11,359 nucleotides of DNA, from positions 1 to 11,359 of the forward strand of contig WJKZ01000275.1 in assembly GCA_014728785.1 (NCBI GenBank). Reading direction: 5' to 3'. The stretch comes from Candidatus Omnitrophota bacterium. Lineage in GTDB: Bacteria; Omnitrophota; Gorgyraeia; Duberdicusellales; 4484-171. Positions 2,193 through 7,994 of the stretch are shown piece after piece (the first letter of the stretch is position 1; the number at the start of each line of letters is the position of its first letter). The notes under the pieces were generated by a model. It did no database searches. It was not told the origin of the DNA and saw only the letters and a list, made by a program, of their open reading frames with translations. A program made the position numbers and the translations under genes.

Positions 2193-4034
2193 ATGGCTGA
2201 TGTAGCAAAGGTTGTTTTTCCCATTGCGATAGATAAAGATTTTGACTATCTGCTTCCCGCAAACAGAGGGGCAGAACCGGGTATGCGGGTTGAAGTCGAT
2301 TTTAGAGGAAGACGCTGTTTAGGTATAATTCTGGATTGCAGAAAAAAAACCTCCTGTAAAAATATAAAACCCGTAAGCCGGCTTCTGGATATCCGTCCTG
2401 TTCTCAGTCAAGAAAATATCAGGACAGCAAAAGAACTGACTAAAATTTATCCCTACCCCCTGGCAGAATTTTTGTTTATGATATTACCTCCCTATATGCG
2501 AAGGCTGCACTCTGGGGGCCGGAAAAAAGGCGATGACAGTCTGGGGGCGGAGAAGGCGTCCCTGAATATATCGCAAAAGACTTTAACCGGTGAAACAAAA
2601 AATATTCTGGATAAACCGCTTTTTGTCCAGGGGTTTGGTTTATCTTTCCGGTACGGTTTCTGGCGGGAATATGTGAAAAAAATAGAGGAGTCCGGTTCGG
2701 TTTTGATTTGTTTGCCCCGGGTTTGGAATTTAGGTGCGGTTAAGACATTGTTTGAGCGTGATTTTAAAAAACCGGTTTTTATACTCCATAGTTATCAGAG
2801 CCAGAGAGATAACTTTAATCTTTGGAAAAGCAGCCGGAGCAACTGCATAATATTGGGAACCAGGAGTACCATATTTTATTATCCTTATGATTTGCGGTTG
2901 ATTATAGTGGATGAAGAAAACAGCCCTTATTATTTGCAGGAAGAAAAACCATTTTACCACCTTCGCGAGGTAGCCGGCATCGTAGCTTCAATAAAAAATG
3001 CGGGCCTGATATTCTCCGGTTATTATCCCTCTCTGGAAATTTACAAAGAAATCAGCAAAAATAAAATCAGTATGGTGTCAGAGGATTATAAAAAAAACAA
3101 TTTTAAAATTGTTGATATAAGCAGAAGCGCTTCCAGAAAATTGATAAGCCCCGTGCTGTCGGAAATATTGCGCAAGAACCTGGAGGATAACAGGCAGTCG
3201 GTGATACTCTGGAATAAACAGGGGTTCGGCAGATTCGTTTCCTGTTCGTCCTGTGGAGGCGTTTATAGCTGTCGGCGCTGTTCGGCGCCCTTGCGCTACC
3301 ACCGCAGAGAAAATTTAGCGGTGTGCCCTTATTGTCAGAAGAGTGAATCTTTACCCGGGGTATGTCCGGAGTGTGGCAACGGCTATTTTAAATTTACCGG
3401 CTACGGAATAGAGCGTATTGAAAGTACACTGACAAAGATATTCCCCCAGGTTGGTGTATCTACTCTCAAAGAAGGTAAAACAGATAGCCGTATAATAGTG
3501 TCTACCTCAAAAATTCTTGATTATCTTTACCGGAACACTAAATTTGACGACGGTCTGGTACTGGATGCGGATTTTCTGCTTTCAGCCCAGGATTATTTGT
3601 CGGTTTTTAATACCTATGTATATCTGAAAAAAGTGTCTTTTCTTTTTTCCGGCCACTGTTACATTTTTACCGCCAAGAGGAGTTATTATCTTTATCAATA
3701 CCTGGAAAAACCATGGCCTGAATTTTATGAGAGTGAATTGCGCTTGAGAAAAAAGATGCGTCTGCCTCCTTTTATCCGGCTTATAAAGTTAGTTTTCAGG
3801 GCCAGAAACGAAAAGAATCTTCTGCATCAGGTCGAGAATTTTTTGAGTTTGCTGGAAAAAGAGTTTGAAGAAATTTATGGACCTCACAAAGAATACCCTT
3901 TTAAGCTTCGTGATAAATACAGATATTCTCTTGTTGTAAAAATAAACGGCGAATCTGATTATGGGAGCCGGATAAGAAAAATAGCAGATTCCTTCAGTCT
4001 GGGAGGTACGCGTCTTGCGATAAAAGTGAACTGA
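2193..4034 (+). CDS. priA: PriA-like primosomal protein N', helicase motifs lost
   Basis: PriA recognises stalled forks and reloads the replicative helicase. This 613-residue homologue (usual length about 730-800) keeps the N-terminal 3'-end-binding domain (1-102), GTRSTIF (222-228), the full zinc module (Cys351, 354, 360, 363, 378, 381, 391, 394), FTGYGIERIE (401-410, for the family's FGTGTERVE) and the C-terminal domain beginning RLPPFIRL (523-530). The ATPase is degenerate. The Walker A equivalent is VQGFGLSFRYG (145-155), with no GKT. DEEH has become DEEN (240-243). The SAT motif is GYY (277-279). The GTQM-AKG-DFP and QVAGRAGR motifs are unrecognisable. Only about 43 residues separate the 3'-binding domain from the Walker A position, so the winged-helix domain also appears lost. 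Actinobacterial PriA proteins are a known precedent for loss of helicase motifs. It most likely acts as a fork-binding or loading scaffold. Fmt follows it, a common pairing. Confidence 0.88.
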   Translation: MADVAKVVFPIAIDKDFDYLLPANRGAEPGMRVEVDFRGRRCLGIILDCRKKTSCKNIKPVSRLLDIRPVLSQENIRTAKELTKIYPYPLAEFLFMILPPYMRRLHSGGRKKGDDSLGAEKASLNISQKTLTGETKNILDKPLFVQGFGLSFRYGFWREYVKKIEESGSVLICLPRVWNLGAVKTLFERDFKKPVFILHSYQSQRDNFNLWKSSRSNCIILGTRSTIFYYPYDLRLIIVDEENSPYYLQEEKPFYHLREVAGIVASIKNAGLIFSGYYPSLEIYKEISKNKISMVSEDYKKNNFKIVDISRSASRKLISPVLSEILRKNLEDNRQSVILWNKQGFGRFVSCSSCGGVYSCRRCSAPLRYHRRENLAVCPYCQKSESLPGVCPECGNGYFKFTGYGIERIESTLTKIFPQVGVSTLKEGKTDSRIIVSTSKILDYLYRNTKFDDGLVLDADFLLSAQDYLSVFNTYVYLKKVSFLFSGHCYIFTAKRSYYLYQYLEKPWPEFYESELRLRKKMRLPPFIRLIKLVFRARNEKNLLHQVENFLSLLEKEFEEIYGPHKEYPFKLRDKYRYSLVVKINGESDYGSRIRKIADSFSLGGTRLAIKVN

Positions 4035-4129: not shown

Positions 4130-5053
4130 ATGAAGATAATTTATTTTGGAAGTTCTGAATTTTCGCGACTTGTTCTGGAGAGTGTGGTCAACAGAGGTCT
4201 CTCTGTATCGTTAGCTGTTAGCCGTGAAGACAAACCGGCGGGCAGAGGCCTGAAGGTTAAATCTACCGAAGTTAGTCGTTTTTGCCGGAACAGGAATATA
4301 CCCGTCTTAAAACCTTCTGATTTGAGTGATGTTTTCGACCGCATTTCCGGGGAGGAAAGCGACTTTTTTGTTGTAGCCGATTACGGGAAAATCATCCCCG
4401 GGGCAATACTTGCCCTGCCGAAAAAATTCCCGTTAGGGGTACACCCTTCTCTTTTGCCCTCTTACCGGGGCTCTTCGCCGATTGAAAGGGCTTTGCTCAA
4501 CGGTGATAAATTCAGCGGGGTTACGATCTTCAAAATGAATGAAAGGGTTGATGCGGGTGATATAGCTTCCCAGAAAAAAGTTGCAATATCAGCCGGGGAT
4601 GATTTTTTCTCTTTACGCGACAGACTGGCGAGAGAAGGTGCGGACCTTTTATGCTCTTCGTTGAAAGACATAGAAGGCGGCAAAATAGTTTTTGTTCCCC
4701 AGAATGAAAATAAGGCAAGCTATGCCTTTAAGTTTAAAAAGTCCGATGCCAAAATAAACTGGAAAAATAAAGCCGAAGATATAAATAATTTGATCCGGGC
4801 TACTATAAAATGGCCGGGAGCTTATACTTTTTATAAAAGTAAGAGAATTAAAGTTATCAAGGCATCCATTGGAGGTGCGAAAGGCGAAAATCATCCTTCG
4901 GTTATCGTTAAATTAGATAAAAACGGCATAGGTGTTGCGACTTCCGACAAGCTTTTACAGATAGAGCTGGTGAAACCGGAAGGTAAAAAAGAAATGGATG
5001 CCTGGAGTTTTGCCTGCGGTCGTAACATTGAAGCGGGAGACAGTTTCGACTAA
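4130..5053 (+). CDS. fmt: Methionyl-tRNA formyltransferase
   Basis: Fmt formylates Met on initiator tRNA using 10-formyltetrahydrofolate. The 307 residues follow the family closely: IYFGSSEFS at the start, REDKPAGRGLKVKSTEV (32-48), VADYGKIIP (82-90), the formyltransferase core HPSLLPSYRGSSPIERAL (105-122), GVTIFKMNERVDAGDI (130-145, with Asp141 at the catalytic Asp position) and a C-terminal tRNA-contacting domain that begins near KINW. The oddity is residue 103. The family has Asn in Asn-x-His, and here the sequence is LGVHPS, with Gly103 before His105. The codon is GGG, two changes from either Asn codon. The start ATG lacks a ribosome binding site and lies 95 bases after priA. That gap (4035-4129) shows a weak TGCCG/CGGCA hairpin (4041-4059) but no convincing promoter. 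A def gene, often beside fmt, is not present here. Confidence 0.92.
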   Translation: MKIIYFGSSEFSRLVLESVVNRGLSVSLAVSREDKPAGRGLKVKSTEVSRFCRNRNIPVLKPSDLSDVFDRISGEESDFFVVADYGKIIPGAILALPKKFPLGVHPSLLPSYRGSSPIERALLNGDKFSGVTIFKMNERVDAGDIASQKKVAISAGDDFFSLRDRLAREGADLLCSSLKDIEGGKIVFVPQNENKASYAFKFKKSDAKINWKNKAEDINNLIRATIKWPGAYTFYKSKRIKVIKASIGGAKGENHPSVIVKLDKNGIGVATSDKLLQIELVKPEGKKEMDAWSFACGRNIEAGDSFD

Positions 5054-7497: not shown

Positions 7498-7570
7498 GCC
7501 CACGTAGCTCAGTCGGTAGAGCACTTCGTTGGTAACGAAGTGGTCACCGGTTCGATTCCGGTCGTGGGCT
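7498..7570 (+). tRNA. tRNA-Thr (anticodon GGT)
   Basis: A complete cloverleaf can be drawn. The acceptor GCCCACG (7498-7504) pairs with CGTGGGC (7563-7569), with discriminator T7570. The D stem is GCTC/GAGC. The anticodon stem CTTCG/CGAAG encloses loop TTGGTAA (7529-7535) with anticodon GGT at 7531-7533, and the T stem is ACCGG/CCGGT with loop TTCGATT. The 3' CCA is not encoded, so it must be added after transcription. It reads ACC and ACU codons. Confidence 0.97.
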
Positions 7571-7866: not shown

Positions 7867-7940
7867 AGGCGAGTAGCTCAATTGGCCAGAGCACCGGTCT
7901 CCAAAACCGGGGGTTGCAGGTTCAACTCCTGCCTCGCCTG
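7867..7940 (+). tRNA. tRNA-Trp (anticodon CCA)
   Basis: The acceptor AGGCGAG (7867-7873) pairs with CTCGCCT (7933-7939), with discriminator G7940. The D stem is GCTC/GAGC. The anticodon stem CCGGT/ACCGG encloses loop CTCCAAA (7899-7905) with anticodon CCA at 7901-7903, and the T stem is GCAGG/CCTGC. The 3' CCA is not encoded. It lies between rpmG and secE, its usual place in many bacteria. The 57-base gap before it shows no convincing promoter, so it is likely processed from the same transcript. Confidence 0.97.
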
Positions 7941-7994
7941 CTGAAAAATACAGAGATTCGGCAGAGTTGAAAAACCAGGCTAAAGCAAAAGCAA

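Follow-up and report, generated by a model that had tools for sequence, protein, structure and literature searches.

Positions 2193–4034 on the forward strand of an 11,359-nucleotide stretch of DNA from a Candidatus Omnitrophota bacterium (contig WJKZ01000275.1, assembly GCA_014728785.1; the whole stretch is called the window) were found to encode a PriA protein whose helicase motor is dead and whose gene family is under purifying selection. The gene is read here, with a probability of roughly three in four, as encoding a pseudohelicase PriA, a structural platform for fork recognition and loading that works without a motor, and within Omnitrophota motor loss seems to have happened on several separate occasions. 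Homology of the window protein to PriA beyond chance is indicated by sequence comparison, its top PDB sequence matches being PriA (1e-47).

The original prediction, made from the sequence alone, described a PriA homologue with an altered Walker A motif, DEEN, GYY and unrecognisable motifs V and VI in an open frame of 613 codons, and this description was confirmed by alignment and script. The frame starts with ATG, encodes 613 amino acids and is free of internal stops. Residues 147–157 read GFGLSFRYGFW, compared with GITASGKTEVY in the intact relative L031 (L denotes loci or rows, G genomes and f families, f1 being the window's own), the motif II position (residues 240–243) is DEEN, which retains the DEE of DEEH, and the motif III position (residues 275–278) is SGYY. 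The motif V position reads IIVSTSKILDYLY, the motif VI position reads YLKKVSFLFSG, with both arginines gone, and GTRS is retained at residues 222–225. An intact Walker A elsewhere in the protein was ruled out by a scripted pattern search, in which [AG]x4GK[ST], SAT and GRxGR had no match in the entire window PriA; the single GK[ST], at residue 428, lies in surroundings that form no P-loop. The catalytic residues of an active helicase (Walker A and B, SAT and the arginine finger) are not present as a set. The Walker lysine position is R153, with arginine in 31 of the 31 sequences compared from the window's family, and glutamate occupies the third motif II position (E242) in 76 of 81 dead PriAs from a comparison of 139 rows (81 dead and 58 intact, which is not a frequency because rows were picked by score or as representatives). 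This conservation points to a motor that is dead, yet was not erased at random.

Pfam recognised the 3'-end-binding domain (PriA_3primeBD, 1.4e-19) and the C-terminal domain (PriA_C, 4.6e-9) and called no helicase domain in the window PriA. Zn_ribbon_PriA fell 0.1 bit short of its cut-off (25.9 versus 26 bits), with eight cysteines present (C351, C354, C360, C363, C378, C381, C391 and C394). The predicted persistence of these cysteines, GTRS and both DNA-binding and C-terminal domains thus holds; the intact zinc module stands for the window PriA and is not universal, having been lost in family member L023 (genome G007). All three modules occur in a single chain, and the predicted model has the full PriA fold, aligning to E. 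coli PriA at 2.4 Å over 582 residues, with a predicted local distance difference test score (pLDDT) below 50 at residues 107–123. Catalytic residues lost with PriA architecture kept is the combination of a Deinococcus-type pseudohelicase. With NCBIfam TIGR00595, 224.3 bits were obtained, narrowly below the equivalog cut-off of 230.35, as expected if motor motifs are lost, and the case for orthology to PriA is made instead by domains, fold and locus. Window positions 2505–2597 are too short for a winged-helix domain; the absence of this domain seems older than the motor loss, because the intact class member L031 likewise has just a short linker there.

That the gene makes a working, non-catalytic protein and is not a pseudogene, as originally proposed, is supported by the full fold, by matches in 34 of the 37 family genomes and by the ratio of nonsynonymous to synonymous substitution rates (dN/dS). 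The latter was well below 1 in five same-genus pairs of other family members, the window sequence itself having no close enough relative, with whole-protein values of 0.070, 0.096, 0.103, 0.152 and 0.182 and values of 0.081–0.190 for the first helicase lobe (HD1); three of the five pairs come from one genus and share sequences, two are near saturation (dS of 1.6 and 1.8), and three further family pairs were saturated and gave no ratio. Of the 81 dead PriAs read, L226 is truncated by the end of its contig and L078 (f4, G133) has its 3'-end-binding domain in a different frame from the rest of PriA, through either a true frameshift or an assembly error; in the wider phylum scan, the priA of G333 carries one in-frame TGA. 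A second canonical priA beside the dead one, which would suggest a decaying paralogue, was found neither in the window's own genome nor in f1 and f2 genomes. The window protein matches one locus only in its genome (1.51 Mb, 286 contigs of which the window is number 240, 68.6% complete), the incomplete assembly being a caveat on this search, and in a scan of 286 genomes of the phylum the best TIGR00595 match in f1 and f2 was 2.2e-68, versus about 1e-164 to 1e-207 for uncut intact copies. Score alone is no proof of intactness, since a dead f24 copy still reaches 9.7e-164.

The 139 rows included the 30 best TIGR00595 scores (L031–L060), rows chosen for low scores (L061–L100) and added family or outgroup representatives (L248–L267 and L218–L236). 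Dead or intact was assigned by family once motifs were read, 12 of the 24 dead families resting on a single sequence, and GRxGR is missing from two intact rows, both of them truncated. Left out were L028 (same gene as L040), L101–L110 (additional f1 sequences, eight of which entered the 31-sequence comparison), L113, L114, L219 (the window again), E. coli, and L227, L237–L240 and L244–L247 (fragments or other genes). A species tree was inferred from RpoB and RpoC under LG+C20 (44 of 83 taxa, 2470 columns; G048 of f22 with 46% of the columns). In this tree f22 (dead) forms a pair with f17 (intact; 98/97), dead f32 falls with intact f23 (98/92) and f14 (100/97), and the dead families form the pairs f5 + f13 (100/99) and f11 + f20 (97/97); the large clade of the window's family is recovered at 100/100, f57 lies outside the class (class 94/99), and the backbone linking these groups is poorly resolved. 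The best tree needs six changes between dead and intact (5–8 across 1000 bootstrap trees), irreversible losses number at least six in 998 of those 1000 trees, and a single clade of dead organisms was rejected when the dead rows were constrained together (approximately unbiased test, p-AU 0.0027). On branches that are starred throughout, only three independent dead/intact pairs can be counted, so the firm minimum of losses is below six. The suggestion of independent evolution in an unrelated lineage is supported and extended, the lineage being Omnitrophota and the loss having apparently occurred several times inside this phylum; the helicase-free replication restart named in the original prediction is a putative function.

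The main rival, which we consider unlikely, is a single ancient loss, after which the dead priA spread horizontally to f5 + f13, f32, f22, f11 and f20. With all rows in, the PriA gene tree groups most dead PriAs (15 sequences, 83/87), with f32 beside f5 + f13 (98/95), and FastTree also groups its dead rows (0.417). These very long branches are, however, the longest of the tree, and a warning from the program notes that long branches join one another there; dead f24 and f57 lie outside the group, and the PriA data do not reject f22 + f17 (p-AU 0.354), f32 + f14 + f23 (0.194) or f24 + f25 (0.348). When each dead lineage was placed with the others left out, f22 joined f17 (83), agreeing with the species tree, the large clade joined f30 + f35 (99), f5 + f13 joined f23 weakly (68) and f11 and f20 fell near the base; f32 joined intact f25 and not f23, a placement in favour of transfer, whereas its spacing to fmt (455, 493) resembles that of intact f23 (462). 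In the fetched flank, an fmt homologue was present for 70 of the 81 dead loci and 37 of the 58 intact ones, on the priA strand in every displayed row, and this adjacency and shared strand speak for an inherited locus. On this evidence as a whole, repeated loss is preferred over transfer.

Variant forms were also observed. L256 (G050, f24) is a seemingly freshly dead PriA that keeps GSGK followed by methionine, with motifs II, III and VI broken, and is a possible evolutionary intermediate. Both zinc module and motor are absent from three separate groups, namely L228, L229, L231 and L232 (f57), L233–L236 (f38) and L023 (f1), and in f6 (L241–L243) the motor lobes barely align and the eight zinc cysteines are kept. 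The 3'-end pocket aspartate (E. coli D17) is found in 75 of 81 dead versus 7 of 58 intact PriAs; its regain with motor loss is not claimed, with only three independent starred-branch pairs and a sign-test p of 1.

By analogy with E. coli and Deinococcus PriA, motorless fork recognition and recruitment of a loader, with putative partners, is the likeliest role. The 3'-end-binding domain would grip the end of the nascent leading strand, the lagging-strand template would be wrapped by the dead RecA-like lobes together with the zinc and C-terminal domains, and the bound PriA would recruit DnaB, probably together with the loader DciA. A duplex lagging strand may be cleared by another 3'–5' helicase, for example of the UvrD/PcrA type, or such forks may go unused, and the lobes may be held in a single state by the arginine and glutamate that remain in the former ATP site. 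Except for the winged helix, the window PriA keeps the domains needed for fork binding and loading in the E. coli model, and DnaB was above cut-off in 34 of the 37 family genomes. Passages of PMC4504706 describe the motorless D. radiodurans PriA as binding single-stranded DNA, forks and DnaB. For E. coli, excerpts of PMC10175261 report that ATPase-inactive K230A PriA was used for DnaB loading in vitro, that fork binding swings the zinc domain, whereby a single-stranded DNA pore is formed and the PriB site exposed, and that the zinc module is the PriB docking site and part of this pore; DciA acting with PriA was suggested for Caulobacter in a passage of PMC9825169.

Several points weigh against this assignment. 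Neither DnaB nor DciA was found in the window's own genome, at its 68.6% completeness; DciA matches 160 of 196 class genomes, with 6 of 13 in f1 and 0 of 4 in f2, which leaves DciA uncertain as the loader in the order to which the window belongs; three groups have lost the zinc module and may load by another route; most dead copies come together in the PriA gene tree, as described above; and we know of no biochemistry of these Omnitrophota PriAs. DciA scores were low or absent in dead-PriA f1, f2, f4, f6 and f38, normal in f12, f28, f31 and f45 of the same clade, and low in intact f23. Gain or loss of UvrD-type helicases with PriA death was not visible, matches being present in 195 of 196 class genomes (the exception being dead f13 genome G113, 85% complete). 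A loader swap to PF01695 (DnaC/IstB type) was likewise discarded: 193 of 196 class genomes match, yet most of the matches listed are weak and lie within frames of about 430–560 amino acids, which we take for DnaA by frame length and nearness to dciA, and the longer matches, in frames of about 150–280 amino acids, are scattered among those listed. Departure of the protein from replication restart to another structural DNA-binding role would fit its very fast divergence, the loss of the zinc module in places and the extreme divergence in f6, and is judged improbable beside the retained fork-binding domains. Decay towards loss could draw on fast divergence, the zinc-less groups, the G133 and G333 copies (either possibly an assembly error) and fairly complete genomes in which no priA was found (e.g., G042, G225 and G227), but these genomes belong to, or neighbour, families in which intact copies are kept by the other members, and dN/dS of 0.07–0.18, the invariant arginine (31/31) and the old, widespread state make it very improbable.

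The neighbourhood of the window priA is ordinary, with genes for a HAD phosphatase, a monogalactosyldiacylglycerol-synthase-like glycosyltransferase, fmt, acylphosphatase, NAD-dependent DNA ligase, L33 and nusG, beyond which lie frames read from the sequence as ribosomal proteins, and rpoB. Genes for tRNA-Thr and tRNA-Trp (window 7498–7570 and 7867–7941) flank the L33 gene ahead of nusG. Named family relatives in the protein search belong to phylum Omnitrophota, or Omnitrophica in older naming, several being publicly named "hypothetical protein" and others "primosomal protein N'"; two named contigs carrying a relative of the window protein likewise come from Candidatus Omnitrophota. In the large clade that includes the window's family, RpoB lacks about 80 residues (model positions ~219–297) that most of the other class genomes searched have, and rpoB and rpoC are fused in one 2590-amino-acid open frame at G040:C22:37502-41188 (L174).

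Table 1. Features of the priA locus in window coordinates.
Feature	Position	Strand	Evidence
priA, 613-aa non-catalytic PriA (probable pseudohelicase)	2193..4034	+	ORF, profile, PDB, fold and motif evidence
3'-end DNA-binding domain, residues 6-99	2208..2489	+	Pfam PF17764, 1.4e-19
Short linker, residues 105-135, at E. coli winged-helix position	2505..2597	+	pLDDT; length suggests no winged helix
First helicase lobe (HD1) with its fold but without catalytic residues, residues ~136-312 (approximate limits)	2598..3128	+	model, alignment
Former Walker A GFGLSFRYGFW, R153 at catalytic lysine position	2631..2663	+	alignment
GTRS, residues 222-225, retained	2856..2867	+	alignment, script
Motif II position DEEN, residues 240-243	2910..2921	+	alignment
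Motif III position SGYY, residues 275-278	3015..3026	+	alignment
Zinc module (cysteine-rich region, CRR), eight cysteines, residues 347-398 (boundaries approximate)	3231..3386	+	alignment
Former motif V region, residues 434-460	3492..3572	+	alignment
Position of the former arginine finger (motif VI), residues 477-487, neither arginine retained	3621..3653	+	alignment
PriA C-terminal domain, residues 526-602	3768..3998	+	Pfam PF18074, 4.6e-9
fmt, downstream neighbour common to many dead and intact priA loci	4130..5053	+	Pfam formyl transferase

The helicase motifs of PriA are well conserved among bacteria according to PMC4504706, yet its ATPase is dispensable for E. coli PriA–PriB restart according to PMC10175261, which puts the purpose of the motor in question. 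The motor may be expendable in the restart job. Both states stand side by side in one phylum, providing natural matched pairs (f22/f17 and f32/f23) for what makes it expendable, and the several apparent losses, the seemingly recent loss and the zinc-less forms bear on the minimal restart platform. Tentatively, at somewhat less than even odds, the motor became expendable in Omnitrophota probably through the mode of DnaB loading and died in at least six independent events, a conserved static fork clamp remaining after each, with three groups without zinc completing a series from active helicase through the freshly dead f24 form to a minimal helicase-free, zinc-free restart platform. No paper on Omnitrophota with PriA or with replication restart was found in the literature searched; motorless PriA is already known from Deinococcus, and new, as far as searched, are its occurrence in this phylum, the apparently repeated motor loss there, the intermediate form and the forms without the zinc module.

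The window PriA resembles E. coli PriA in its 3'-end-binding domain, two RecA-like lobes, CRR and C-terminal domain, whereas the latter keeps GSGKT, DEEH, SAT and GRAGR and has a winged-helix domain. Loss of motor residues is also ascribed to actinobacterial PriA, the only precedent named in the original prediction. The window protein reached at most 122 bits with NCBIfam PRK14873 models, which we take to be actinobacterial PriA, below the 270.7 bits of its best PRK05580 model. The actinobacterial protein is described in a passage of PMC1193525 as a smaller, very divergent putative PriA orthologue, and the biochemically shown precedent is the D. radiodurans pseudohelicase, which, in passages of PMC4504706, likewise has no working ATPase residues, with arginine for the Walker lysine in both. 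The change in D. radiodurans is described there as lysine to arginine within GKT with poor matches to motifs I and II, whereas all examined motifs are altered here; the motorless Omnitrophota proteins belong to an unrelated phylum, lack the zinc module in some lineages and apparently lost the motor recurrently.
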